The notes under the pieces are model-generated. The model did no database searches. It was not told the DNA's origin and saw nothing but the letters and a program-made list of their open reading frames with translations. The position numbers were made by a program, and so were the translations under genes. A stretch of 55,205 nucleotides of DNA from a virus: IMG/VR virus record IMGVR_UViG_3300009509_000033, positions 1-55,205 of that record. One strand, written 5' to 3'. Of the stretch, positions 184 through 51,350 are shown piece by piece (within the stretch, counting starts at the first letter, position 1; each line of letters begins with the position of its first letter).

Positions 184-1221
184 TCAGCCGGTCCTCCTTT
201 CCTTCGCCTGCTCAACAAGCGAGATCACCTCAGCCTTCTTCGGCGTGAGGCGCTTCTGCCAGTTGGCCGTCCGCTGACCGAGTTGCTCCAACTCGAAGTC
301 GAGACGCCGGAGCACCTCGGCGTCCTCCGCCATGGTGATGTGCGGGAGAGCTTTCACCACCTCGGCCAGCTTCGTGGAGGTGGCATCGGACGAGAGCATC
401 TTCTCGATGCTGTCGGCCAGCGTCTTCCCGAACGTCTCGAACAGGAGCGTCTTCGGCGCCTTGGATGCCGCCGCAGCACGGTAGGTGTTGGCGTCCACCT
501 CCCCTCGAAGATCCTTCTGGGCGACCTCTCCGCGCCGGGCCTTGCGCGCCGTGACCTTCGCCCCTTGAGCGACCTTGCCCTTCACCGCCTCGACCTCTCG
601 CGGAGGACGGTTGCGGGCTCTCCCGGCCTTCTCGATCCGCTTCATGTGCGCGTTGGCCCGCTGGACGATCTCCTTCGCGGCCTTCACGCTGAGGCCCTCC
701 AGGTCGTCCATGTCGAGGTAGCCGCCCTGAAGGAGCGAGTAGGCCGCCGAGCACGCCTCTGCGGTGGCGTTCATGATGCTCTGAGCGGGACGTTTCCCAG
801 CCCTCTCGCGGTCCCAGCCAAGAAGCCGTGCAATTTCGACAGCATCGGGTGTGTGTTCCTTCGCGGAGGAACAAAACTCCACTGCCCCCTGCCAGGTGTT
901 GAGCATGACGAGGAAGTCGGTCGAGTAGTCCTCGCCGTTCTCCCGGCCCATGAGCTTCAACATCTCCTCGTCGGAGAGGTCTCGGATGATGACCGGAACC
1001 CGCTTCAGTCCCAGCCGACGGGCGGCTTCGAGTCGGTGGTGCCCGAACGCCAGCTCGAACCTCTTGCCGACCGCTCGGACGATGACACCCTCCCAGAAGC
1101 CGACATCCTCGATCGAACGCATGAGCATCTCCACTTTGCTCTCGATCCAAGGATAGGTGTCCAACTTACGATGCGGGTTGGGACCAACTTTGCTAATTTC
1201 CACGTTAGACAGTTGCGCCAT
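184..1221 (-). CDS. ParB/Sulfiredoxin-like nuclease-domain protein
   Basis: 345 residues. The N-terminal 90 residues carry the ParB/Srx fold signature, with FGHHRLEAARRLG near residues 60-72 followed by VPVIIRDLSDEEM. The rest is helical and Lys/Arg-rich. In chromosomes ParB binds DNA and hydrolyses CTP; phage relatives are often DNA-binding or nuclease proteins of unknown role, and no ParA partner is visible here. The start at 1221 is preferred over the upstream ATG at 1239 because GGAGGA sits 4-5 nt before it. It is transcribed divergently from the gene at 1328. A second ParB-like gene lies at 17855. Confidence 0.8.
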   Translation of the reverse strand: MAQLSNVEISKVGPNPHRKLDTYPWIESKVEMLMRSIEDVGFWEGVIVRAVGKRFELAFGHHRLEAARRLGLKRVPVIIRDLSDEEMLKLMGRENGEDYSTDFLVMLNTWQGAVEFCSSAKEHTPDAVEIARLLGWDRERAGKRPAQSIMNATAEACSAAYSLLQGGYLDMDDLEGLSVKAAKEIVQRANAHMKRIEKAGRARNRPPREVEAVKGKVAQGAKVTARKARRGEVAQKDLRGEVDANTYRAAAASKAPKTLLFETFGKTLADSIEKMLSSDATSTKLAEVVKALPHITMAEDAEVLRRLDFELEQLGQRTANWQKRLTPKKAEVISLVEQAKERRTG

Positions 1222-1267
1222 GTTTCCTCCAAATGTCATGAATGGAGCCTAACCCATGATCGACAGA

Positions 1268-1788: not shown

Positions 1789-2856
1789 ATGGCTACGTGG
1801 AGTGGCATGTCGAGCAAACTCAGGGGGGCGGCAGTGATCGGAGCAATCCTGGTCACTGTTGCGGCCGGGGCGTCCGTGACCCCTTTCCTCGTCTCTTGCG
1901 AGGACACTGCGGAGGCTGGACAGAGCCCGGATGCTCGACGCGAGGCCGCCAAAGAGCGGAGGATGCGGGAGGCGGCCGAGTTCCGGGAGAGATGGGAGCA
2001 GCGAGAGCGCGAGAGCGAGGCCCGGTGGAAGCGGCTCGAAGAGGAGTCGGACCGGCAGAGAGCGGCTCTGGAGGAGGAGCTTGCCGCAACGCCCCAAAAG
2101 CATGTCCGCCGTGTTCGTCGGTTCCTGTGGGAGAGCCCTGCCGAGACGCGGGGGAAGATCTGGAATGTGCCCGTCGAGGAGAGCCACGACGCCCTTCTGA
2201 CGGCCTTGCTCCGAGTGTGCATCGCCGAGGCGGACGGGGACCCACAGGACTGCGCGGGCATCTGGCAGGTGGTCAAGAACAACCGCCGCCGGTCATGCGA
2301 CCGAGGGATGATCAGGCGCATCACGGAATGCGTGGAGGGCGAAGGCGAGACCTACATGTCAGCCCTCCGGAGACACCAGCGCCACGTGCTCGGGATGATC
2401 AAGGCCCGGAACAAGCGGGCGGTCTGGATCAGCAAACTCACCCCCGACTGTGAGATGCCAGAGGGCTACCCCGAGTCGGAGAACCACTGGGACTCCCACT
2501 ACGGCTCGAAGGTCTGTCCGCAAGCGGTGGCCGACGTGCGTCAGCTCATCGCCGGGAAGTTGCCGGAGTCGAGGCCAGGGCACCGCGTCCGATGGCTGCC
2601 AGGTCGCCCCGTCACCTGGGGAGGCCGCTGTGAGGCCAACGGAGGAGCCTGTGACGACCGTATCGCCTGCGCCCGAGGGCTCGCACGCATCCCGGGCACG
2701 GACACCCTGAACGCCTTCTGGTGCCGTCCTGGCGCGGCAGGCTGCCCGGATGACATCGACCCGATCTGCATTCAGATGGGGTACCCGAGCCGCCGAGTGA
2801 CAGAAACGGTCACTGCCGCAGAGCCCGAAGGATCTCCCTCCGACGAAAACTCTTGA
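1789..2856 (+). CDS. Secreted or membrane-anchored protein, possible cell-wall hydrolase
   Basis: 355 residues. A hydrophobic segment at about residues 13-32 (GAAVIGAILVTVAAGASVTP) and a following Cys at about 37 suggest a signal anchor or a lipoprotein-like export signal. Residues 45-105 form a charged coiled coil. From about 130 the pattern LLRVCIAEADGDPQD...VVKNNRR recalls SleB/CwlJ-type hydrolases, whose catalytic Glu lies in an AEA(R)GE motif, and several Cys in the C-terminal half suggest disulfides. A role in lysis or envelope penetration is inferred. An excellent AGGAAGGAGG site precedes the ATG. It could instead be an unrelated periplasmic protein. Confidence 0.7.
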   Translation: MATWSGMSSKLRGAAVIGAILVTVAAGASVTPFLVSCEDTAEAGQSPDARREAAKERRMREAAEFRERWEQRERESEARWKRLEEESDRQRAALEEELAATPQKHVRRVRRFLWESPAETRGKIWNVPVEESHDALLTALLRVCIAEADGDPQDCAGIWQVVKNNRRRSCDRGMIRRITECVEGEGETYMSALRRHQRHVLGMIKARNKRAVWISKLTPDCEMPEGYPESENHWDSHYGSKVCPQAVADVRQLIAGKLPESRPGHRVRWLPGRPVTWGGRCEANGGACDDRIACARGLARIPGTDTLNAFWCRPGAAGCPDDIDPICIQMGYPSRRVTETVTAAEPEGSPSDENS

Positions 2857-2881
2857 CCTCGCGCTTTCTGGCGGGCAGTAT
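2853..2881 (+). promoter_or_regulatory. Candidate promoter TTGACC - 17 - CAGTAT
   Basis: TTGACC (2853-2858) overlaps the stop of the preceding gene, and CAGTAT lies at 2876-2881 with a 17-bp spacer. It would transcribe the non-coding stretch ahead of the structured RNA. The -10 is weak. Confidence 0.4.
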
Positions 2882-2924
2882 CGTCAGGCTTTGGTTCGGT
2901 GGTGCCCACTGCTGGACCGAGGAT

Positions 2925-2954
2925 TTGGTCATGACGAGACAATTTCTATATGCT
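2925..2954 (+). promoter_or_regulatory. Promoter for the structured small RNA
   Basis: TTGGTC (2925-2930) and the overlapping -10 candidates TATATG (2947-2952, spacer 16) or TATGCT (2949-2954, spacer 18) lie in an AT-rich patch unusual for this genome. Initiation at about 2960 would begin a few bases before the first stem of the folded RNA at 2969. Confidence 0.5.
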
Positions 2955-2960
2955 ACAGTT

Positions 2961-3102
2961 TGTTTCTGCGCGAGCCCACTCGGAGTACGGGTTCGAGGAT
3001 TGGCGTAGGCGCTCAGTCGCCACGCCCAACAGGCGCACCTAGCGCCACGTCATGACCGTCCTCGTTCTCGTTGGGCCTCCGAGTGGGCTCGCGTTTCCTT
3101 TT
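2961..3102 (+). ncRNA. Candidate structured small RNA, multibranched, 17-bp closing stem
   Basis: Outer stem: CGCGAGCCCACTCGGAG at 2969-2985 pairs perfectly over 17 bp with 3077-3093. Inside it are ACGGG/CTCGT (2987-2991 with 3067-3071, one GU), a 2x2 T loop, and CGAGGA/TCCTCG (2994-2999 with 3059-3064). There are two hairpins: GGCGT-A-GGCG/CGCC-ACGCC (3002-3026) and GGCGC/GCGCC (3032-3046). TTTCCTTTT follows the outer stem, as in an intrinsic terminator. A promoter sits just upstream and the initiator gene begins 33 nt later. No open frame explains it. Roles could include a regulator or primer RNA for replication, a decoy RNA or a host-directed RNA; none is shown by sequence. Confidence 0.65.
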
Positions 3103-3134
3103 GAGCGCGGGCCACGTGAGAGGAAGGTGGTTCC

Positions 3135-4517
3135 GTGCGCGTGGGTCCTGAGCAATTCATCTACCGTGACTTCGCTTTCATCGACGCGATGATCCTGCCC
3201 GTGGTCGGGCCGAAGACGATCGCCATCTACGACGTCCTCCGTCGCTACATCTGGAGGGCTGCCGACCGAGGTGCGAAGAAGTCGCGGGACGCCTTCAAGA
3301 AGGGAAAGCTCTCAGCCTCCATCACCCGGAGCAAGTTGGCCGAGCTGTCCGGCGTCTCGGTCCGCACCGTCCAGCGACACCTCAACCGCCTCAAAGACAT
3401 CCGATGGGTGGAGTGGGAGTGCGGGAACGGGACCGGGGAAACGGTCGTCTACGAGCTGGGCTTCCGCACCCCGGACGGCGTGGAGGTGTTCTACGCCGAC
3501 GCCAGCGCTCGGAGGCTCTGGCTCGGGCTCGAAGAGTTGGCCGTGGAGCAGGGGGCCGAGCGCGTGAACGACCTTCCCTGCGACGTCCGTCTCGCTTTCG
3601 CCCGAGGATGGTTCGACCCGGAGGGGGGTGGTGACAAAAATGTCACCAGGGTGGTGTCACCAGTGTCACCAGGGGTGGTGACAGAAATGGCACCTAGTAA
3701 TAGAGAACCCTTCGGGGAGGGAATAGAGAAGTCCGAGGAATATGCTGGGCGCTCCGCGCCAGCACACACCCCCGGCCCGAAACACTGGGATGCTCCCGCC
3801 GGTCGAGAACGAAGAAGTCCTTCCAAAGACAAAGAACGAGACTCAGAAGGCGCGGAGATTGCTCTTGACATTGCTCTTGACTCCGGCGAGGATGAGGATA
3901 GGTTCGCGCGGGCTGCGGCGGCCGGTGCCGAGGGGAAGGCCAAGGCCGACCACCAGACCGAGGCCAACATCCGGAGAGCGACGCGACGCCTGAAGGAGAA
4001 GAGGACGGAGCAGGTGGAGCGAGTCCAACAGGACGAGCAGAGGGCCAAGAACCTGAAGGGGGGCACACGCTACACGCACGCGATACTTCGAGCAGCACGC
4101 GACGCCTGGGATGTCTACGTCGAGCTGATCAAGGGCGCTCACCCGGCGATGCCCGTCGTGAGGTGGAACGCCGAGGGCAACGCGAAGGCGCGCGGACAGA
4201 TGTGCCGTCTCGTCGACATGTACGGTGGCGAAGCGACGAAGCAAGCGATACGTTATATGGTAGGGAACTGGGACGCGATCAACGCCCGATTCTTCAAGAA
4301 GGGGCCAGGCAGCGTTCCAAACTTCGGGCTGCTCACGTCCATGCACGAGTCCTTGTTCCGGGAGTCGGCGTTGTGGAGAGAGCACCGAGAGGTCATGGAG
4401 GAGTGGGAGGCGTGGCAGAGCGAGCACGCGGACGACGACGAGACCCCTCCTTCAGAGTTGCAGGGGCGCTATGAGAACGCACGCACAGCGCTGGAGTCTC
4501 TTGGGCTCGGGGTCTGA
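3135..4517 (+). CDS. Replication initiator-like helix-turn-helix protein
   Basis: 460 residues from a GTG preceded by AGGAAGG. The N-terminal 100 residues include a winged-helix/HTH (KLAELSGVSVRTVQRHLNRL near 68-87), as in phage replisome organisers. Residues about 165-290 are a variable, charged linker whose DNA carries iteron-like repeats. The C-terminal 130 residues form a helical domain of the kind that recruits helicase loaders. It sits directly upstream of the DnaC-like loader and DnaB-like helicase, the order seen in lambda O-P and many phage replication modules. Initiator function is inferred from context and the HTH. Confidence 0.7.
   Translation: MRVGPEQFIYRDFAFIDAMILPVVGPKTIAIYDVLRRYIWRAADRGAKKSRDAFKKGKLSASITRSKLAELSGVSVRTVQRHLNRLKDIRWVEWECGNGTGETVVYELGFRTPDGVEVFYADASARRLWLGLEELAVEQGAERVNDLPCDVRLAFARGWFDPEGGGDKNVTRVVSPVSPGVVTEMAPSNREPFGEGIEKSEEYAGRSAPAHTPGPKHWDAPAGRERRSPSKDKERDSEGAEIALDIALDSGEDEDRFARAAAAGAEGKAKADHQTEANIRRATRRLKEKRTEQVERVQQDEQRAKNLKGGTRYTHAILRAARDAWDVYVELIKGAHPAMPVVRWNAEGNAKARGQMCRLVDMYGGEATKQAIRYMVGNWDAINARFFKKGPGSVPNFGLLTSMHESLFRESALWREHREVMEEWEAWQSEHADDDETPPSELQGRYENARTALESLGLGV
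3630..3694 (+). repeat. Iteron-like cluster of TGTCACC/GGTGACA heptamers
   Basis: Six heptamers lie in 65 bp: GGTGACA at 3630 and 3677, TGTCACC at 3641, 3655 and 3664, and TGGCACC (one mismatch) at 3688. Two pairs form palindromes with 4-nt A-rich spacers (3630-3647 and 3677-3694). The cluster is inside the initiator-like gene, in the linker-coding part, like the lambda iterons inside gene O. It is probably the binding site of this protein and a candidate replication origin. Confidence 0.55.
3858..3881 (+). repeat. Tandem 12-bp direct repeat
   Basis: ATTGCTCTTGAC occurs twice in direct succession, encoding IALDIALD in the linker of the initiator-like protein. It lies about 165 bp downstream of the heptamer cluster and is relatively AT-rich. 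It could be an origin element or a simple duplication. Confidence 0.5.
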
Positions 4518-4535
4518 CGATGCCCGGAGGCAAGC

Positions 4536-5144
4536 ATGACCAGCCCCGCGCCATTCAGACGCAAGCTCGGTCGTGTGGACTTGGAGCGGATGAACATCCC
4601 GGAAGACCTCTGGCTCGCCAAGATTCAGAGCGTCAGCGAGGACGTGCGCGAGAAGGTCGAGACCTACCTCCGGAACGTGAACGTGGCGGTGGCCAACGGA
4701 GCCGGGCTCGTCATCCACGGCTCGAAAGGTGTTGGCAAGACGGCCATCGCTGCCCTGATCGCGAAGGAGGCCAGGTCGAGAGGCCATACGGCGCTGTTCT
4801 GCCGCATCTGGGAGCTACGAGAGATGATCCGATCTCGCGTCCAGTTCGACGCCGACTCGTCGGTGGCGGAGCGGGCTCGGAGCGTGGATGTGCTTGTGCT
4901 GGACGACCTTCGAGCGGAGGATGCCGGAGAGAAGTTTTTCACCTTGTCAGAGATCAACGAGCTGGTCCGGTATCGGGCGTCACGACGTTGCGTCACGATC
5001 ATCACGACCAGGCTCGACAAGGGGGCGCTCACAGTGCCTCCGATGAACGTCCTGTTGGACGTCTTGCTCCTGTTCAAGGTGTCGGGTCCCGACCTGCACG
5101 ACGAGAAGAAGCGGGCACTGAAGGAAGCGGTCCTGGGGACCTGA
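4536..5144 (+). CDS. DnaC-like helicase loader, AAA+ ATPase
   Basis: 202 residues. Walker A is GSKGVGKT at 62-69 and Walker B is VLVLDD at 120-125, followed by TTR near 160, a sensor-1-like position. Size and motif order match DnaC/IstB-like ATPases that load the replicative helicase. It lies between the initiator-like gene and the DnaB-like helicase, with CGGAGG before the ATG at 4536. It should act in the cytoplasm at the phage origin. Some small AAA+ proteins of this type serve other roles, but the context favours a loader. Confidence 0.85.
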   Translation: MTSPAPFRRKLGRVDLERMNIPEDLWLAKIQSVSEDVREKVETYLRNVNVAVANGAGLVIHGSKGVGKTAIAALIAKEARSRGHTALFCRIWELREMIRSRVQFDADSSVAERARSVDVLVLDDLRAEDAGEKFFTLSEINELVRYRASRRCVTIITTRLDKGALTVPPMNVLLDVLLLFKVSGPDLHDEKKRALKEAVLGT

Positions 5145-5165
5145 TAGCGTAGGCGGGGGTAGGGC

Positions 5166-6551
5166 GTGGACCTCGACACCATCTTTGTCGCCAGTGTGCT
5201 GAAAGGCGGCCGTGAGGCCGTTCGGTTCGCCATCGAGCGCGGGGTCGATGAGGACTGCCTTGGCGGCAAGGGGCTCACGGCGTGGAAGTTCGTTCTCGAC
5301 TACCTGAAGCAGTACCACGACGTCCCTGACCCTGGCGTGGTCGAGGGGAAGACCAACGTCAAACTCCCGGACCCGGACAAGCAGCACCCGCCCGCGTTCT
5401 GGGTGGACGAGGTGCTCAACCGCCGACTCCACAACGCCATCGGCGACAAGTTGCTCGCCATCACGGCGCACTTCAAGGCACGCGACCCGCAGGCGGCCTT
5501 TCAGGAGTACGCGGACGGGCTCCATGACCTTCGGAAGCTGGGAGCTGGCGTAGCCAAGACGGTCAGCCTCTTCTCTCTCGGCCCGGAGTTCCTGGACTAC
5601 TACGACAAGATCAAGGCCGGCTATCGAGGCATCCTGACACCATGGCCGACGATCAACGAAGCGACTCTCGGCTTCTGGCCGGAGGACTTCGTGCTCTACG
5701 TCGCGCGCCTGGGAGTGGGCAAGACGTGGGCGCTTGCCATCCTCGCGAACCACGTGTGGACGGTCCAGAAGAAGCGCGTGCTGTTCGTCACGACGGAGAT
5801 GTCGCAGCTAGCGATCGTCCGTCGGTGGATCGCCATCCACTACAAGTACCCCTACAACGATCTTCGGAAGGGGATGCTGAGCGCGTTCGCCGAGCAGCGG
5901 ATGAGGGACGACCTCTCGGAGAAGGCGAAGGAGGAAGGGCTCTACCTCATCGGAGGAGATTTCGACTTCCGGATCGAGTCCATCGAAGGGGCCATCGAGG
6001 AGAGCGAGCCGGACGTCGTGTTCGTGGATGGGGCGTACCTGCTCAAGGTGAAAGGCGAGGGCCGGATCGAGAAGGCGGCCAACTCGTTCGACGAGTTGAA
6101 GCGGGTGGCCAAGCGCAACCACCTTCCTCTCGTAGCCTCGACCCAGTTCAACCGTGAGGTGAAGGGGAACAAACTCTCGACAGCCGGCCCGGAGAAGATC
6201 GCCCTGTCGGACGCCGCCGGGTGGAACGCGGACCTCATCTTCGGTCTCGTGCGGACCGACGACATGAAGCGCGACAAGCGCATGATCCAGCTACCCTTGA
6301 AGTTCCGAGAGGGGGAGGGGGACGAGATCGAGACGCACTGGGACTTCGATACCATGAATTTCGATGAGCTACCCAAGGGCGCTGCGGCGGCTACAGCGGG
6401 CGCTGGAGGCGCTGGAGGCGCTGGAGGGGGTCAGGGCGGTGGAGCTGGCTCTGGGGCCTCTGGAGGCGGCACAGCCCCCGACCCAGACCCCTACGGGACC
6501 GGGCTCCTGTTCGGCGATGACGACGACACGAAGGACCAGGTGCCATTCTGA
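5166..6551 (+). CDS. DnaB-like replicative helicase with SSB-type C-terminal tip
   Basis: 461 residues from a GTG. It has an N-terminal helical domain, then a RecA-fold motor with Walker A ARLGVGKTW at about 181-189, a TTEMSQ segment near 213-218, Walker B DVVFVDGAY near 283, and a STQFNRE sensor region. After the motor come a Gly/Ala-rich linker (tandem GGCGCTGGA codons near 6405) and an acidic tail ending DDDDTKDQVPF. The tail resembles the SSB tip and the acidic, Phe-ended tail of T7 gp4. It should unwind DNA at the fork after loading by the DnaC-like protein. The following gene overlaps as TGATG. Confidence 0.88.
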   Translation: MDLDTIFVASVLKGGREAVRFAIERGVDEDCLGGKGLTAWKFVLDYLKQYHDVPDPGVVEGKTNVKLPDPDKQHPPAFWVDEVLNRRLHNAIGDKLLAITAHFKARDPQAAFQEYADGLHDLRKLGAGVAKTVSLFSLGPEFLDYYDKIKAGYRGILTPWPTINEATLGFWPEDFVLYVARLGVGKTWALAILANHVWTVQKKRVLFVTTEMSQLAIVRRWIAIHYKYPYNDLRKGMLSAFAEQRMRDDLSEKAKEEGLYLIGGDFDFRIESIEGAIEESEPDVVFVDGAYLLKVKGEGRIEKAANSFDELKRVAKRNHLPLVASTQFNREVKGNKLSTAGPEKIALSDAAGWNADLIFGLVRTDDMKRDKRMIQLPLKFREGEGDEIETHWDFDTMNFDELPKGAAAATAGAGGAGGAGGGQGGGAGSGASGGGTAPDPDPYGTGLLFGDDDDTKDQVPF

Positions 6552-16455: not shown

Positions 16456-16763
16456 GAGGTATCAACAAGGCCGTCATCTCCGGGAACGTGTCGAGGGAGA
16501 TCAACTACGGCAAGATGCCCGACGGCTCGCCCGTCCTCTCGTTCACGATGGCATCGGATCGCCCTGCGAACGGGGTCGTCATCACGGCGTGGGTGAAGGT
16601 GAACGTCTACATCGACACGCTCGTCGAGCAGTGCAGGGAGCACCTTCGATGTAGCGGGTACGTCATCGTCGAGGGCGAACTCATGAATCGAGAAGGGCGC
16701 CACGGAAAGCTCACGGAGGTGAGGGCGAAGGAGATCATCTTCGTGAAGGAGGGCAGGAAGTGA
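16452..16763 (+). CDS. ssb: Small OB-fold single-stranded DNA-binding protein
   Basis: 103 residues. MRGINKAVISGNVSREINYG, VLSFTMASDRP and VKVNVYIDTLVEQCREHLR followed by GYVIVEGELMNRE follow the classic SSB OB-fold order. It stops at VKEGRK, without the acidic tip found on the larger SSB-like protein at 8863. ATGA overlap links it to ruvC and a GTGA overlap to the next gene. It may act in recombination rather than at the main fork. Confidence 0.8.
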   Translation: MRGINKAVISGNVSREINYGKMPDGSPVLSFTMASDRPANGVVITAWVKVNVYIDTLVEQCREHLRCSGYVIVEGELMNREGRHGKLTEVRAKEIIFVKEGRK

Positions 16764-17626: not shown

Positions 17627-17858
17627 TCCGAGCATGACGCTGCCCATCACGCCCGACAACATCCACACCGAGTTGGAGCACGTCGAGCAGATCGTGAAGA
17701 AGTGGCGCGAGTTCGTTGGGACGGGCATCCCCGGTATCGACATGCCGGCACAGGATTCCGAGGCGAAGCTGGACTCGTTCCTCCGGCAGTTTACCGGAGA
17801 GATGCTCTACGTGGCCGGCAAGTGTCAGAACCTCGCCGTGGTGTTGTCCGAGCGATGA
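17619..17858 (+). CDS. Small helical hypothetical protein
   Basis: 79 residues from a GTG, predicted as two or three amphipathic helices (HTELEHVEQIVKKWREFV; AKLDSFLRQFTGEMLYVAGK). It overlaps the genes on both sides (8 bp upstream, ATGA downstream). No family recognised; it could be a small partner of the ParB-like protein that follows. Confidence 0.65.
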   Translation: MTDPSMTLPITPDNIHTELEHVEQIVKKWREFVGTGIPGIDMPAQDSEAKLDSFLRQFTGEMLYVAGKCQNLAVVLSER

Positions 17859-18661
17859 AACAGAAGACGGCGAAGACCAGGTTCGAGATGCTCGACCCTG
17901 GACTGTTCGATCCGAACCCATGGAACCCGAACACCATGGACCAGGACGACTACAACCGCCTCGTGCGTGAGATCGACGAGGTTGGTTTCATCGTCCCGGT
18001 CCAGGCGGTCCCAATCGAGGGCGGACGCTATCGGCTCATCGGTGGGGAGCATCGAATCGACGCCGCGAAAGACCTCCTCTTGAAGGAGGTTCCGGCGATG
18101 GTGCTGGACGGCCCTCGCTGGCAGGACGAGGAGCTACAGCAACTCGTCACGGTGCGCCTGAACGTGCTGAACGGGAAGATGAATCCCGAGAAGATGGCGA
18201 TCCTCTACAACCGCTACGCGAAGAAGTACGGGGAGGACGCTCTCCAGAACCTCTTCGCCTATACGGACAAGCACGCCTGGGACAAGCTGGTGAGCGGGAT
18301 CAAGCGCGGGCTATCGAAGGCAGCGCTCCCGAAAGAGAAGCAGAAGGAGTTTGCGGATCGGGCGAAGGAGGCCAAGACCCTCCAAGACCTCGAACGCATC
18401 CTGAATGAGCTGTGGTCCAGCTACGGCGACACGGTGAACCTCTCCTTCATGATCTTCACCTACGGCAAGCGAGAGCACTTCTACGTGGCCATGGACAAGA
18501 AGACCAGGGAAGCGGTCAAGCGCATCGGCGCGCACTGCAAGGGCCTCGCGAAGGACATCAACACGGTCCTCGGTCCGGCTCTCCAGGCCCTCGCTGACGT
18601 CCTCGACAAGTCCGATTCGGAGCCGAAGCAACAGCCCGAGCAGGATGACGTTGGCTTCTGA
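17855..18661 (+). CDS. Second ParB-like nuclease-domain protein with SSB-like tip
   Basis: 268 residues. The N-terminus has the ParB/Srx fold: NPWNPN near 22-27, VREIDEVGFIVPVQAVP near 37-53 and LIGGEHRIDAAKDL near 62-75. A helical middle and C-terminal domain follow. The last residues, PEQDDVGF, resemble the SSB-type tip of the helicase and SSB-like proteins. It shares only the core motif with the ParB-like protein at 184-1221. A role in DNA binding or nicking is inferred. Confidence 0.78.
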   Translation: MKQKTAKTRFEMLDPGLFDPNPWNPNTMDQDDYNRLVREIDEVGFIVPVQAVPIEGGRYRLIGGEHRIDAAKDLLLKEVPAMVLDGPRWQDEELQQLVTVRLNVLNGKMNPEKMAILYNRYAKKYGEDALQNLFAYTDKHAWDKLVSGIKRGLSKAALPKEKQKEFADRAKEAKTLQDLERILNELWSSYGDTVNLSFMIFTYGKREHFYVAMDKKTREAVKRIGAHCKGLAKDINTVLGPALQALADVLDKSDSEPKQQPEQDDVGF

Positions 18662-18701: not shown

Positions 18702-21700
18702 GTGGCCATGGGTATGATGAGCGAGACCATCTCGAATCGGGCTCGACCTCTCTGGGAGGCGCAGCAAGAGCCAGACCCGGAGAAGTTCGTTCCCGTCTTC
18801 TCTTGGGACAGCAAGCACGTGTGGGTGTGGGTGAAGAAGCCGGGCGGGAAGGTCGTCGGCCCGGTAGAGGTCCCGCACGATCAGGTGCACAAATACAAGG
18901 GAAAGCTCGGTTGGCTGGCGAAGAAGACCGAGTACACCGCGCTCCTCGACCCCGGCTGGTACGCCGGAGTGGAAGACCTTTACCCCGCGACGTGGAAGCC
19001 GGGGGACTCGCTCGCCATCGGCCAGCTCCCATCTGAAAAGATCACGGCAGCGTTCAAGCCCTTCACCGTCACTCCGGAGAAGGCCGCGAAGAAGCCGAAG
19101 ACGATCCCTCCCGAGTTCACTCTGACCGGCAAGAAAGACCCCCACGGGTACCAGACGGTCGAGGATGAGGCGACCGGAGAGGAGTATTCCCTTCTCCCCG
19201 ACGACAAGATCGGCCAGTGGACTCCAGAGGAAGGCGTCTACTACATCGCGAAGAAGTTGCCTGGAGAGGATTGGGCGGTCCACCTCGACTCGCCGGTCTA
19301 CAAGCCGCACGAGTTGGAACCGAAGACGTCTCTGCCGCCTATGGACCCTCCCAAGGACTTCGAGCTACCCCCCAACTACACGATCAAGAAAGTCGCGCCG
19401 TCCTATGTCCTCGCCACGACCCCGGACGGCACGGACGTGAAGTGGATCAAGGCGACGGACCACTGGGTTCACGCCGACGACCCCACCAAGGAGCACGAGC
19501 CTCTTCAAGCGGCAGTTCCGAAGGTGAAGAAGTACCCGAAGGTGCCGAAGAAGAAGGCGGCCCCAAAGGCACCTCCAGCCGGCAAGCCATCGACTCCGAA
19601 GCCGGAGGAGAAGAAGGTCGTCTCGAAGACGGCGGAACCTGCTCCGCACATGACCAAGTACCTGGGGCAGGTGGACGACAACGGGCTTCCGCTTGTCGAT
19701 GAGGTCCCAGAGGGAGATTACGAGGAGGAGGAGGTCGCGAAGGGCCTCACCTTGCTTCCCGACGATCGGGTGGCCCGGTGGAGGCCGACCGAGGGCGTCT
19801 ATCTCATCTACGACTACGACCCCTACTTCGGCTTCATGTTCTCCAAGAGCGGTGAGACGGTCACGCCTGACGAGGCCAAGCAACTCATGGCCGCGCTGCA
19901 TCTCACGGTGCACGCTGGTCGGTATCACAAGTACGACGTGGCCGGGGCGGAGGCTCCTCAGCCGACAACGTACAGCGCCCCTCTCCCGGACCACTGCAAG
20001 TCCATCTCGGGCACGGATGTGAACGGCCTGCCCATGGTGCTGACGGTTCCGGAGGACCCCTACGATGAGGCTCACAAGCTCACTGTATTCCCGAACGCTC
20101 GCGTGGGCAGGTGGGACTCGCTCTCGAAGAAGTACCTGTACTGGGAGTGGCGAGAGATCCTCGGGGACTACAACTACTACCCGACGCATCCGGCCGAGTA
20201 CGTCTCCTTGAAGGAGATCCAGAAGATGCAAGCTCAGGCCGGCGGGGGGCCGGTTCCGGCGCCGGCTCCGGCGGTGATCACAGGGCTGATATGGCCCACG
20301 AAGCAGAAGCCGAAGCCGAAGGTCAGCAAGCCGAACGCTCCTCCCCCGAGCCCAAGCACGACGGCGGCAAAGCCTCCTCCCGTTCCCGCGAAGCCTCCAG
20401 TGCTCGCTGGCGCTCTGAAGCCGACAGGGAAGGACGACCCGCTCGGCTACCACATCGGCTCCTACAAGGGCAGCACCTACTCCATGCTGCCGGACAAGAA
20501 GGTCGGTGTCTGGTCTGCCGTGAGCGGGGCCTACATCCTCTACGACTACGACCCTCTTGGGGACGCCTTCTTCAACACCGGCTACACCTGGACGCCTCCA
20601 GGGAAGCACAAGGCGCTGGCCTACGTGTCGCTTGTCGGGCTCGACCACGCCCAGTTGGAGGACAGCACCGGGAAGAGTGTGGTCGTCCTCGCGAATGGGA
20701 AGTTTGCTCGACACGAGAAGGGGGCGTGGTTCGCCTACAAGGTGGACCCGGCGCAGGGGAAGAAGTTCGTTCCCACTGGCGAGGAGATCAGCTCCGAGAC
20801 GATGGCGGCCATCGCCAAGACGCCGAGCTACAAGACGATGAAGCCGACGGGCGAGGTCGATGAGAATGGCCTCCCCACCTACAAGATCGTCAAGGGTCCC
20901 ACGAAGGGGAAGGTCTTCACGATGCTCCCAACCGGGAGCCTCGCGCACTACAACCCGAAGTCCAAGTCCTACCGCCTCATGTCTTTCGACCCCGACATCG
21001 AGGGGTGGGAGCTGTCCTGGCCCAAGGAGACGTTCACCCTCAACGACATCAACGCGATGTACCTGAAGGTTGGCTCCGAGCCGATGGAGCCGAAGGAGAC
21101 GGCCCCGACCGAGAAGCCCGCTCCGAAGGTTCCGACGGAGCCGCAGACCCCGGTGTTCGTCACGCCTCAAGGAAAGCTCCCGGACCCCAAGACGCTCAAA
21201 GACCTGGGAGGTGTGGGGCTGTTGGGGGCAGGACCGGACAAGACGGTTCTCCAGGACCCGAAGACAGGGCAGCGCTACCTCTTCAAGCCGGCCCTTCCGA
21301 AGGGCGGAGCGAAGGTCGTGCAGCCCTACAAGGCGAAGTCGCAAGAGGGCTTCGCGGCAGTCGCGGCCCTTGTCCGTCCGGATGCCCACGTCCCAGTCGA
21401 GACCGTCACTCACAATGGGAAGTTGGGAACGATCCAGCCGATGCTGGACCTGGACCCGAACCAGCCGGACCTGAACGGCGTGAACCCGGCAGACCTCACG
21501 GATCAGCAGAAGCTCGACGTGGCCGATGAGCACCTCCTTGACTGGCTCATGTCGCAGCACGACTCGTTCGCTTCAAACTTCGTGATCACGAAGGAGGGGC
21601 GCGTCGTCGGCATCGACAAGGAGCAGGGCTGGAGGTACGTCAACGACCCGAAGTACCCAGACAGGTTGGCCACGGACTACAAGCCCAACTCGGAGATCTA

Positions 21701-23750
21701 CGGGGAGCAGGAGCCCTACTACAACAAGTTCTGGAAAGCCTTCGCGGCCGGGAAGATGGACTTCGATCCGACCCAGATGGCTCCGGCTCTGTCTCGTGTC
21801 GAGGCGATGGACCCGCTCGTGCTGGAGAAGGCACTCTCGGAGTACGCTGACACGGTGAAGCGGATGCAGGGGCCGGCGAAGGCATATGACCGCTACGCCT
21901 TCATGAAGCAGATGCTCAGCCGCAAGAACACCCTCCGGTACGACTTCGAGAAGTTCATCACGGAGCAGTACGAGAAGCGGACCGGGAAGAAGGGCGTGTT
22001 CACCTTCAAGGCCGGGTGGAAGCCGGAGGGGGTCGAGGAAGGGCCGAAGTACGAGACCATCTCTCAGTCGGCCCGGGACTGGGCTCTGAAGGAGTTTGGT
22101 CCGAAGGCCCTGAAGCCTCACAAGGACTTCCCGGAGCTGATCCTCGTGCGCGTGCAAAACGACGAGCCGATCACAAAGGTGCAGGAGTTCCTGAGCAAGA
22201 TGGGCGTCGAACCGGCAACGACGGACCCGGACGGGAACCCGCTTCCCATGAACCCGATCCTCGGCTCCAACTACAACAGCGTCATCGTGAAGGTGTCCGA
22301 CCTGGAGAAGGTGGTCAAGCGCAAGGTCGAGATCAAGAAGGACCCGGGGCAGAAGTACGCCGACCACACTGGGGTTCCGACCTACCAGGCACAGGTTCTC
22401 GCGCCCCCGGACGCGCCTGGGAACGTGGACGGCCTCGCGACGGCGCACAAGGAGCACCTCGGCCCGCTCGGGAAGGACTTCACGCTCGACTCGGATGCCG
22501 TGGAGCAGCAGACGGCCTCGGTCCAGCGAGTCATCGGCCAGGACGGAGAGACCTACTACCGGGCTCACTTCAAACTCCGCCGGCCGTACTGGGAGCCGCT
22601 GGTTCACACGGGCAAGTCCGGGACCTTCACGTGGCCGCTCGGGGCCTACGAGCCGGACAAGGACGCGCTCGTGATCAGCAGCTACCAATCGGGAGCCCAC
22701 TCTGAGCCAGCTCGCGTCTTCAAGTCCGGCAAGGACGAACTCTACCTCATCACGGGCGAGACGAACTGGGCGTTCATGGGATCGGTCTACGTGCTCATCC
22801 GATCTGGCGAGGGGAAGGTCAAGGCGGCCCTCACGAAGCTGTTGAAGGAGCTGGGTCTCGACAAGAAGGTGCTGACAGACCCGACGTCGGAGGACATCCG
22901 GCTCTACAACCTCACGCAGGCCCTCTGGTACCTCTCACCGAAGGCGCACAAAGAGCTGGCCGACTCAGGGGACCTCACGCTCGATGCCGTGACCAAGCGG
23001 TTGAAGGGGCGCCTCACCAAGGAGGAGATGGAGGGGATTCGCCAGGTGACCGGCACGGTGGGACGCGGGTCCGCGATGGTTCCTGGTCTCTGGAGAAAAC
23101 TCGGAGGAGGGACCCCGGAGAAGCCGGTCATCCGCTTCGTGTTCTGGAACGTCCGAACGACGAGCGTCCCGAAGATCCTTCGCTCGGCTGCCACAGGCGT
23201 TCACGAGCGGGTCCGAATGGGGCTGCCGGGCGGGGCGACGGGGCACGGGGCGTCGGAGGAGCAGGACATGGCGACGGGTGGCGCCGATACGACCACGATG
23301 CGTATCTCGACAGCGCAGGCCGGCAATGTGCCGATCAGCGTCGTTGGGAACATCCATCGGGAGGTGCGGATCATCATCGCTCCTGAGCTACTCGATCGTC
23401 TGGACATCTCGCTGGCGACTGGTGACGCCTTCGGGTGCCAACGCTACTCTGGGTACAAGAGCGAATACTTCCGTCAACGCCAGGGCATGAGCAACGCGAT
23501 CAAGACCTTCGATGGAGGTGGGGCGTCCACGCATAAAGGCAACACCGAGATTCAGATCCGACGTGGTGTCCCACCGAATCTGATCAAGAGGGTGTGCACG
23601 ACGTCCGAGCACCACCGCAAGGAGGTGCTGGCGAACTGCGAGAAGGTCGGCATCACGGAGCACAACAAGGTGCCCATCGAAGATTTCGTCGTGGTTGAGG
23701 ACAACGCCGGGACCATCTATAATAAGTACATAAAGCCTTTGGGGTACTGA
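18702..23750 (+). CDS. Giant multidomain protein: beta-module repeats plus kinase-like core
   Basis: 1,682 residues from GTG 18702; ATGs at 18708 and 18714 are alternatives, 18714 having the best spacing to AGGTGG. Residues 140-770 hold about six related modules, each with a TG/GxDxxG turn, xxLPDxKVGxW and a closing YxLYDYDP-like strand (about 139, 320, 433, 572, 643, 713), joined by Pro/Lys-rich linkers. Residues 820-1000 look like a HipA/PI3K-type kinase: YLFKP (Lys862), HDSFASN (His953-Asp954-Asn959) and VGIDKEQG (Asp972). The C-terminal 680 residues are unassigned. Possible roles are an injected virion enzyme or host-modifying kinase; both are inference. Confidence 0.75.
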   Translation: MAMGMMSETISNRARPLWEAQQEPDPEKFVPVFSWDSKHVWVWVKKPGGKVVGPVEVPHDQVHKYKGKLGWLAKKTEYTALLDPGWYAGVEDLYPATWKPGDSLAIGQLPSEKITAAFKPFTVTPEKAAKKPKTIPPEFTLTGKKDPHGYQTVEDEATGEEYSLLPDDKIGQWTPEEGVYYIAKKLPGEDWAVHLDSPVYKPHELEPKTSLPPMDPPKDFELPPNYTIKKVAPSYVLATTPDGTDVKWIKATDHWVHADDPTKEHEPLQAAVPKVKKYPKVPKKKAAPKAPPAGKPSTPKPEEKKVVSKTAEPAPHMTKYLGQVDDNGLPLVDEVPEGDYEEEEVAKGLTLLPDDRVARWRPTEGVYLIYDYDPYFGFMFSKSGETVTPDEAKQLMAALHLTVHAGRYHKYDVAGAEAPQPTTYSAPLPDHCKSISGTDVNGLPMVLTVPEDPYDEAHKLTVFPNARVGRWDSLSKKYLYWEWREILGDYNYYPTHPAEYVSLKEIQKMQAQAGGGPVPAPAPAVITGLIWPTKQKPKPKVSKPNAPPPSPSTTAAKPPPVPAKPPVLAGALKPTGKDDPLGYHIGSYKGSTYSMLPDKKVGVWSAVSGAYILYDYDPLGDAFFNTGYTWTPPGKHKALAYVSLVGLDHAQLEDSTGKSVVVLANGKFARHEKGAWFAYKVDPAQGKKFVPTGEEISSETMAAIAKTPSYKTMKPTGEVDENGLPTYKIVKGPTKGKVFTMLPTGSLAHYNPKSKSYRLMSFDPDIEGWELSWPKETFTLNDINAMYLKVGSEPMEPKETAPTEKPAPKVPTEPQTPVFVTPQGKLPDPKTLKDLGGVGLLGAGPDKTVLQDPKTGQRYLFKPALPKGGAKVVQPYKAKSQEGFAAVAALVRPDAHVPVETVTHNGKLGTIQPMLDLDPNQPDLNGVNPADLTDQQKLDVADEHLLDWLMSQHDSFASNFVITKEGRVVGIDKEQGWRYVNDPKYPDRLATDYKPNSEIYGEQEPYYNKFWKAFAAGKMDFDPTQMAPALSRVEAMDPLVLEKALSEYADTVKRMQGPAKAYDRYAFMKQMLSRKNTLRYDFEKFITEQYEKRTGKKGVFTFKAGWKPEGVEEGPKYETISQSARDWALKEFGPKALKPHKDFPELILVRVQNDEPITKVQEFLSKMGVEPATTDPDGNPLPMNPILGSNYNSVIVKVSDLEKVVKRKVEIKKDPGQKYADHTGVPTYQAQVLAPPDAPGNVDGLATAHKEHLGPLGKDFTLDSDAVEQQTASVQRVIGQDGETYYRAHFKLRRPYWEPLVHTGKSGTFTWPLGAYEPDKDALVISSYQSGAHSEPARVFKSGKDELYLITGETNWAFMGSVYVLIRSGEGKVKAALTKLLKELGLDKKVLTDPTSEDIRLYNLTQALWYLSPKAHKELADSGDLTLDAVTKRLKGRLTKEEMEGIRQVTGTVGRGSAMVPGLWRKLGGGTPEKPVIRFVFWNVRTTSVPKILRSAATGVHERVRMGLPGGATGHGASEEQDMATGGADTTTMRISTAQAGNVPISVVGNIHREVRIIIAPELLDRLDISLATGDAFGCQRYSGYKSEYFRQRQGMSNAIKTFDGGGASTHKGNTEIQIRRGVPPNLIKRVCTTSEHHRKEVLANCEKVGITEHNKVPIEDFVVVEDNAGTIYNKYIKPLGY
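23695..23723 (+). promoter_or_regulatory. Sigma70-like promoter TTGAGG - 17 - TATAAT inside the giant gene end
   Basis: TTGAGG (23695-23700) and a perfect TATAAT (23718-23723) with a 17-bp spacer lie in the last codons of the giant gene. It is the best match to the housekeeping consensus that I found here, and would start RNA at about 23730 for the gene at 23750. Confidence 0.6.
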
Positions 23751-29575: not shown

Positions 29576-29590
29576 GGGCGTGTAATCTTC

Positions 29591-29608
29591 GCCCCGGGAG
29601 GCCGGGGC
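29591..29608 (+). terminator. GC-rich hairpin after the gene at 28853
   Basis: GCCCCG pairs with CGGGGC across a GGAGGC loop, 15 bp after the stop. No U-tract, so termination is uncertain; it may also protect the RNA end. Confidence 0.3.
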
Positions 29609-29652
29609 TCGTCTGATGAACGTGTGGCCGAAGTGTCGGCCAAGGAGGAGAG

Positions 29653-40597: not shown

Positions 40598-40646
40598 GCG
40601 GCGACGCCTGCGACGAGTGACCTGATCGACCTCGGTTCGTTCTCGA

Positions 40647-40685
40647 CGGCCGCTGGCTCCCAAGGGGCCGGCGGCCGTTTGCTTT
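40647..40685 (+). terminator. Intrinsic terminator after the capsid gene
   Basis: CGGCCGCTGGC (40647-40657) pairs with GCCGGCGGCCG (40667-40677) over 11 bp with one GU, across a 9-nt loop, followed by TTTGCTTT. It is the clearest terminator in the window apart from the ncRNA stem and closes the head operon. Confidence 0.8.
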
Positions 40686-40689
40686 GAGG

Positions 40690-40710
40690 GGTGCGACCAA
40701 TTGTCGCACC
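40690..40710. promoter_or_regulatory. Palindromic operator candidate, copy 2
   Basis: GGTGCGAC-CAATT-GTCGCACC (8-bp arms) lies between the capsid terminator and the next gene. Its core is the reverse complement of the 15-bp element at 9954-9968. A GGTAAGGTAGGG stretch before the ATG could hold the -10, but no good -35 is seen outside the palindrome. Confidence 0.45.
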
Positions 40711-50765: not shown

Positions 50766-51350
50766 ATGATGGACGAACGAGCGGAGATCCTGAAGGCGAC
50801 GGTGGACGACAGGAAGGAGTCCTGGACCACGCGAGTATGGGACGCCTGTGGGGGCAAGTGCTCCAACTGCGGCTCGACCTACCGCCTGAAGGTGAGGATG
50901 ATCGTCCCGAAAGAGGCGGGCGGCCAAGAGGTCGTGAGCAACGCTATCCTCCTCTGCCGGACGTGCGAGTTGGCTCGCGAGATCAAGACCAAGGTGCCAC
51001 AGCCCGCGTCTGGTGAGCACACGAGGCCGATCAACTTCTTCGTGAGCCAGGAACTCCACCACAAACTCAAGAACGGGCTCGCGGCGGACTACGGGTTCAG
51101 GAGCGTGTCGGCGCTCGTCCGATACCTCATGGCGAAGTTCGTGGCGGACGCCGACGAGTTCGATGACCTGGAGATGTACCAGGACGGAGGCTCGGATGTG
51201 AAGGTCAACGTCTGGGTTGGGCGGGACGTCTACGCCCGATTCAAGGCGATCACGGACAGGAACGGGACGACGGTGACGGATACCTTGAAGGGCCTCATCC
51301 GGATGTACGAGGCGGAGGCTCGGAGGATCGTAGGGAGGACGAGGGCATGA
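50766..51350 (+). CDS. Degenerate HNH-type zinc domain plus two ribbon-helix-helix domains
   Basis: 194 residues, AGGAG upstream. Residues 28-70 are HNH-like (CGGKCSNCGSTYRLKVRMIV, NAILLCRTCE), with zinc Cys kept but the usual catalytic His replaced (RM in place of HH, CE in place of CH). Two ribbon-helix-helix units follow: RPINFFVSQELHHKLKNGLA near 84-103 and VKVNVWVGRDVYARFKAITD near 145-164. This should be a DNA-binding repressor rather than an active nuclease, perhaps acting on its own near-palindromic promoter. A regulator inside a tail operon is unusual. Confidence 0.7.
   Translation: MMDERAEILKATVDDRKESWTTRVWDACGGKCSNCGSTYRLKVRMIVPKEAGGQEVVSNAILLCRTCELAREIKTKVPQPASGEHTRPINFFVSQELHHKLKNGLAADYGFRSVSALVRYLMAKFVADADEFDDLEMYQDGGSDVKVNVWVGRDVYARFKAITDRNGTTVTDTLKGLIRMYEAEARRIVGRTRA

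Follow-up and report, generated by a model that had tools for sequence, protein, structure and literature searches.

A structured element before the replication initiator gene of a T4-like phage, possibly an RNA-only switch that restrains the phage's replication genes

The window, that is, the whole stretch of 55,205 nucleotides analysed here, is a 55-kb viral record representing a genome fragment, and its gp20-type portal, gp23-type capsid, tail sheath and gp19-type tube mark it as a T4-like tailed phage. The element under study sits in a 278-nt gap between a conserved, function-unassigned gene (1789-2856) and a replication operon; unless otherwise stated, all features described below lie on the plus strand. 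The operon opens with an HTH initiator-like gene (3135-4517), with PHROG matches to HTH DNA-binding and O-like initiation families, followed in order by genes for a DnaC-like loader, a DnaB-like helicase and a primase. Elsewhere in the window, two separate ParB-domain proteins are encoded at 184-1239 (minus strand) and 17702-18661 (plus strand), one of which is near the PHROG 'ParB-like partition nuclease'. Between the ParB-like nuclease gene and that of DNA polymerase A lies a gene (18702-23750, plus strand) for a 1682-aa protein with repeated proline-rich segments and a large globular C-terminal part, which had no Pfam or PHROGs matches, and an HNH-endonuclease-like protein is encoded amid the tail and baseplate genes (50766-51350, plus strand). 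Three intergenic stretches (16536-16675 and 29576-29652 on the minus strand, 40598-40690 on the plus strand) show modest folding (z about -3), far weaker than that of the RNA at 2961-3102, and are possibly terminators.

Within the gap, positions 2969-2985 and 3077-3093 form a perfect 17-bp inverted repeat, the sole perfect one between 2600 and 3500. The corresponding helix, P1, comprises 17 Watson-Crick pairs and one G.U pair (5' strand 2968-2985 with 3077-3094) and encloses a broken second stem, made up of P1b and P2, together with two GC-rich hairpins, P3 (TTGGCGT..ACGCCCAA, 3000-3029) and P4 (GGCGC..GCGCC, 3032-3046). The 5' strand of P2 is CGAGGA (2994-2999), and its 3' strand (3059-3064) forms part of a longer block, X' (TCCTCGTTCT, 3059-3068). 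X' is preceded by a2 (CGTCATGACC, 3048-3057), a hypervariable, guide-like loop, and followed by GTTGGGC (3070-3076), in which UGGGC is a bulge in the predicted short-RNA fold. The 3' strand of P1 and a T-rich run (3094-3102) together form a terminator (3077-3102), and a consensus scan is terminator-like at 3072-3091. The fold energy of the segment is -83.7 kcal/mol, compared with -51.1 +/- 4.0 in dinucleotide shuffles (z -8.26), with none of 200 shuffles as good. The minimum-energy fold of the window sequence alone rearranges P3 and P4, which the relatives give as separate hairpins. The original prediction, made from the sequence, had described the perfect closing stem as unlikely to arise by chance and had named the broken second stem, the two GC-rich hairpins, an AT-rich -10 shortly before the stem and a T-rich run after it, all of which were borne out, the -10-like TGCTACAGT ending 9 bp before the stem. 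It had also held that no ORF covers the region; short mechanical ORFs do overlap it, but the region does not look coding because the relatives differ by indels that are not multiples of three. Its remark that the RNA matches no familiar RNA family agrees with the Rfam scans, which gave no match at the gathering threshold in the whole window and only irrelevant matches at E<=10 for 2840-3140. Neither a tRNA nor a tmRNA was found in the window, and blastn of the RNA region, or of its homologue in the divergent lineage L028, gave no match among annotated phages and plasmids.

Relatives were found in IMG/VR via the initiator and the helicase and represent five independent lineages: the window, L001, L002 (with L003 identical), L007 and L028, the last being much changed. 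The element was found before the replication-initiator gene in all five, and a covariance model built from the four lineages other than L028 recovered the L028 element in its own record (E 3.8e-7). In the four-sequence alignment, 95.8% of cells pair, and changes on both sides occur in 7 of 42 pairs, against 3.4 +/- 1.3 in shuffles and 0-1 with the partners slid, few sequences entering this comparison. Both sides change in 4 of the 18 pairs of P1 and in three of the six pairs of P2. P1 is a perfect 17 bp in L007, and in L028 a wholly different sequence again forms a perfect 16 bp; a T run follows P1 in every lineage. P4 is invariant in four lineages, and P3 is nearly so, with another hairpin in its place in L028; because neither varies, conservation is the whole of their support. 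GTTGGGC is likewise invariant in four lineages and reads GGTGGGC in L028. The homologues were checked for uncompensated changes in the arms, which would have counted against the original prediction, and this check did not refute it. Conservation, compensatory changes, a promoter-like element and a terminator together give good support to a structured RNA upstream of the replication initiator that looks as if it is transcribed.

Beyond these five lineages, the covariance model found no convincing copy in other related records, two weak matches having been read and rejected. Scans of the genome collection with the helicase alignment and with the RNA core pattern yielded no relatives, and three pattern matches score weakly by the model; the pattern matches L012, L013 and L015 and the model matches L051 and L052 were read and judged to be chance. 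The whole records of looser helicase relatives (L030-L038) and of upstream-gene relatives (L018, L020 and L021) were also searched, with no convincing copy. The contigs of L006 and L008 start too near the initiator to show the presence or absence of the RNA; in the AT-rich L006, whose contig begins 78 bases before the initiator, a terminator-like hairpin (AGCCCAC..GTGGGCT) with a T run is found there. A small HTH-like gene lies between the RNA and the initiator in L002 (about 4849-5018) and L007 (2333-2788) and resembles the N-terminal part of the initiator, as if duplicated. In L028, the gene after the RNA (4077-5345) encodes an HTH protein whose N-terminal half is of another sequence type than that of the window initiator, and the loader and helicase stay related to those of the window despite this changed HTH gene.

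About 120 nt upstream of the 3' half of the RNA, the same strand carries three blocks that are complementary, in inverted order, to a2, X' (including the P2 3' strand) and GTTGGGC. Block K (GCCCACT, 2904-2910) is the partner of GTTGGGC, and its GCCCA is kept in all five lineages. Block X (GGACCGAGGA, 2914-2923) pairs with X' through 8 Watson-Crick pairs and one G.U pair of 10 in the window and through 11 of 11 in L007. Block a1 (GGTCATGACG, 2927-2936) is the complement of a2 in every lineage, although its sequence differs in each: over the five lineages, a1 and a2 form 49 Watson-Crick pairs and one G.U pair with no mismatches, whereas partners swapped between lineages form only 1-5 of 8-10 pairs. 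The length of a1/a2 ranges from 8 to 13 nt. In L007, for example, the leader reads GCCCAAC..GAACCAGGGGC..GCTAACCGA and the RNA reads TCGGTTAGC GCCCCTGGTTC TC GTTGGGC. The computed stability of the complete leader:RNA duplex lies between -36 and -54 kcal/mol; depending on the lineage, between 0 and 12 shuffles out of 2000 do equally well. In a swap matrix, the lineage's own partner ranks first in four rows out of five and comes within 0.4 kcal/mol of the best in the fifth. No other exact target of a2 exists in the window, the few one-mismatch copies lying kilobases off. The 3' part of X resembles the P2 5' strand; the P2 3' strand is complementary to the leader X as well and therefore has two conserved partners, P2 5' and X, and both pairings, inside the RNA and with the leader, are kept by compensatory changes in the five lineages. 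An unguided search of 20 sequences for a long inverted repeat with a loop complementary to a stretch 10-60 nt upstream returned all five lineages, reverse-strand mirror images and few others.

The leader also contains a hairpin, P0 (2889-2922, loop GCCC(A) at 2904-2908), which forms in every one of the five lineages and includes G.U pairs in three of them. P0 folds better on the plus than on the minus strand in the window, L002 and L007, equally well in L001 and in the reverse order in L028. Inverted repeats before an initiator gene might also serve a rapidly evolving DNA-binding protein, such as the HTH initiator, as paired operators or as repeats of an origin, with RNA folding being incidental; a1 is indeed palindromic in the window (GTCATGAC) and in L001 (CATAGCTATG), and the initiator diverges quickly among the relatives (47-83% identity). 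However, a1 is not palindromic in L002, L007 or L028, the spacing of the blocks varies, and the compensatory changes in P1 and P2, the T run of the terminator and the G.U pairs need RNA, so that we consider this DNA-level explanation unlikely. The G.U pairs of P0 and those of the leader duplexes speak for an element that acts as RNA, not as DNA. In addition, the exposed pieces (a1 and the P0 loop on one partner, the a2 loop and the UGGGC bulge on the other) look like the contact points of antisense RNAs, with exchangeable stems between them.

Two promoter-like signals accompany these structures. The upstream signal, P_up (2853-2881), consists of TTGACC (2853-2858), a 17-nt spacer and CAGTAT (2876-2881), with a predicted start of a long transcript at about 2889. 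TTGAC(C/T) is found 74-77 nt before a1 in four lineages and 86 nt before it in L007; the -10 that follows after some 17-18 nt is weak. The motif overlaps the stop codon of the upstream gene in four lineages; in L028 it lies inside a longer reading frame, and therefore coding does not explain the conservation of the motif there. The internal signal, P_int, is the extended -10 at 2951-2959, with a predicted start of a short RNA at about 2967. The motif TGnTAnnnT is present between a1 and P1 in all five lineages (TGCTACAGT, TGATATAGT, TGATAGAGT, TGATATTGT and TGCTACGAT), and the linker that holds it otherwise varies. A simple consensus scan scores neither P_up nor P_int; the same scan found no minus-strand promoter at 2700-3300, although it also misses the plus-strand candidates. 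As for the extent of the element, the conserved, co-varying unit reaches beyond the 2961-3102 first proposed and spans about 2853 to 3102.

The a1 block falls in the -35 zone of P_int, 13-19 nt before its -10 in all lineages, a position that would suit RNA-guided DNA control, in which the short RNA and a protein read a1 in the RNA's own promoter and either repress it or prime replication. Long-form tracrRNA of type II CRISPR systems and TnpB-derived repressors act in this way; furthermore, 8-13 nt is a guide-like length, and a1 is the sole exact match to the a2 complement in the window. Nevertheless, pairing extends to blocks X and GCCCA, an R-loop would be interrupted by the linkers of 0-14 nt, P0 forms a hairpin containing G.U pairs, and a Pfam search of the window's proteins showed no family of RNA-guided proteins, all of which makes RNA-guided control quite improbable in our view.

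In the window and in L001, the initiator begins about 30 nt beyond the terminator made up of P1 and the T run. Since this leaves little room for another promoter between the terminator and the initiator in these two, the replication operon is likely read through the terminator. The closing stem is thus probably a terminator through which the replication operon is transcribed, and the RNA, which had been taken as self-standing, would be so in its predicted short form but not only so. The position directly before the initiator gene might instead suggest a ColE1-like primer, in which phage DNA synthesis starts from the RNA or its precursor and is tuned by the upstream tract. The strong terminator hairpin at the RNA end leaves no obvious 3' end in the DNA, however, and the co-varying partner is the leader rather than downstream DNA, and a priming role therefore seems very improbable.

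To follow the competition between leader pairing and P1, partial chains were folded at equilibrium, without pseudoknots. In the growing long chain (from about 2889), leader pairing forms from the moment a2 emerges, reaches 24-30 bp at most and remains the best fold until P1 lacks only its last 9 nt in the window or its last few in L001, L002 and L007, whereas in L028 it is favoured throughout; at full length, the long chain of the window prefers the terminator. When the leader tract is held single-stranded in silico, P1 forms with 16-18 bp in all five lineages, and the short chain from about 2967, which has no leader, adopts the terminator fold only. As the leader pairing scarcely overlaps the P1 arms, any hindrance of P1 would act by topology and timing and by the loss of P1b and P2, not by direct masking.

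Given the structures, complementarity, covariation and computed stabilities described above, we infer two transcripts, a direction of switching, an action in trans and a biological purpose as follows. A long transcript from P_up, or read-through from the preceding gene, would form the leader pairing and delay P1, so that the polymerase enters the replication genes. A short transcript of about 135 nt from P_int, or a processed piece, would end at the terminator. The free short RNA would make first contact with a new leader at two points, the a2 loop meeting a1 and the UGGGC bulge meeting the P0 loop, and then zip through X; with the leader thereby taken out of cis pairing, P1 would form and transcription would stop before the initiator. 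More phage genomes would yield more short RNA and hence less initiator. The device would thus govern how much or when the phage replicates, and it could exclude close relatives by sequence match. We regard it as somewhat more probable than not that the element is an RNA-only attenuator for the phage's replication operon that brings its own antisense form, acting in trans on the leader. The conservation of the extended -10 and of TTGAC even in the divergent L028 counts for this attenuator. Against it count the scant overlap of the leader pairing with the P1 arms, the preference of the window's complete long chain for the terminator, the weak -10 of P_up, the failure of either promoter to score, the preference of the L028 P0 for the minus strand, the small gene between the RNA and the initiator in L002 and L007, and the genome fragment's showing no sign of lysogeny, which makes a need for immunity-like control less evident.

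The same complementarity could also act purely within a single long leader, where a1:a2 and the remaining blocks would build a pseudoknot about P1 that serves as a conditional terminator or is bound by a protein, with no trans-acting short RNA and with TGnTAnnnT coincidental or minor. All the complementarity does fall within one possible transcript, the spacing from a1 to a2 is nearly constant (121-131 nt), and a pseudoknot should be sterically possible at these loop lengths; such a cis-only structure would be the reading to stand if the short promoter is unused. It is nonetheless doubtful, since the extended -10 is kept in all five lineages inside an otherwise variable linker, the two exposed pieces per partner look like antisense contact points, and a plain cis structure leaves the fast change of a1/a2 unexplained. 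Of the roles listed in the original prediction, antisense is the closest to the attenuator favoured here, with the difference that the likely target, the RNA's own upstream leader, had gone unnoticed; for the packaging RNA, the anti-defence RNA and the 6S-like decoy, nothing was found in support. The 6S family gave no Rfam match, and the fold is that of a closed stem whose loop branches, without the single large central bubble of a 6S-type stem.

More tentatively, and with rather less confidence than in the attenuator itself, one strand may encode both the leader target and a short RNA bearing its inverted copy, with the closing stem as attenuator and the 8-13 nt loop as an RNA-only exclusion code in T4-like phages, which would make this a previously undescribed class. 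If so, the fast-changing loop would set which phages recognise each other, and the presence of such a same-strand, self-contained design with its hypervariable loop in a T4-like group would suggest that other phages too use RNA for replication control and kin recognition. Swaps of a1/a2 between lineages are a sharp and directly testable prediction, and the lineages would between them supply attenuators of natural origin, perhaps orthogonal to one another.

Plasmids, and temperate or satellite phages such as P4 and P1, are known to control replication operons by antisense RNA. In P4, the CI RNA pairs with seqA on its upstream side and with seqC on its downstream side and so ends transcription of the replication genes (PMC4825925). 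Like it, the element described here would be a short RNA from a replication-operon leader, with its complement upstream in the same leader and a bearing on premature termination (PMC4825925). A seqA-like complement is present in five lineages (a1/X/K to a2/X'/GTTGGGC); as to a seqC-like downstream target, no further exact copy of a1 was found in the window, and termination by the short RNA is here predicted, in that a blocked leader lets P1 form. In contrast to the CI RNA, which is processed from the leader, our RNA seems to be transcribed from a promoter of its own and is closed by a stem that doubles as an intrinsic terminator; the two have no sequence or Rfam relation.

C4-like RNAs carry a variable target loop of 7-11 bp on a fixed scaffold (PMC5320573). 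Judged by its sequence, the element resembles the C4 antisense RNA of P1/P7 and relatives in its fixed scaffold, its hypervariable loop (8-13 nt here) and its target, which would lie in the same transcript; C4, however, is a processed 77-nt RNA that acts on ant expression, whereas the present RNA would be about 135 nt, has another architecture and lies before replication genes. The C4 covariance model (Rfam RF01695) had no match at the gathering threshold in the window, nor at E<=10 in 2840-3140. In pT181 and pIP501, an antisense RNA switches the initiator leader from an antiterminated to a terminated form, starting by loop contacts (PMC4878617, PMC5703833). The present leader similarly belongs to an initiator gene and has mutually exclusive terminator and antiterminator folds, as computed by equilibrium folding, but the antisense RNA of these plasmids comes from the opposite strand, whereas here an inverted copy on one and the same strand would supply it, and the short RNA's own closing stem acts as the terminator. 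By analogy, rather than by demonstrated membership in any of these groups, the element would work like P4 CI, C4 and pT181/pIP501. The most fitting place for it is an RNA family of its own, as a new form of antisense attenuation.
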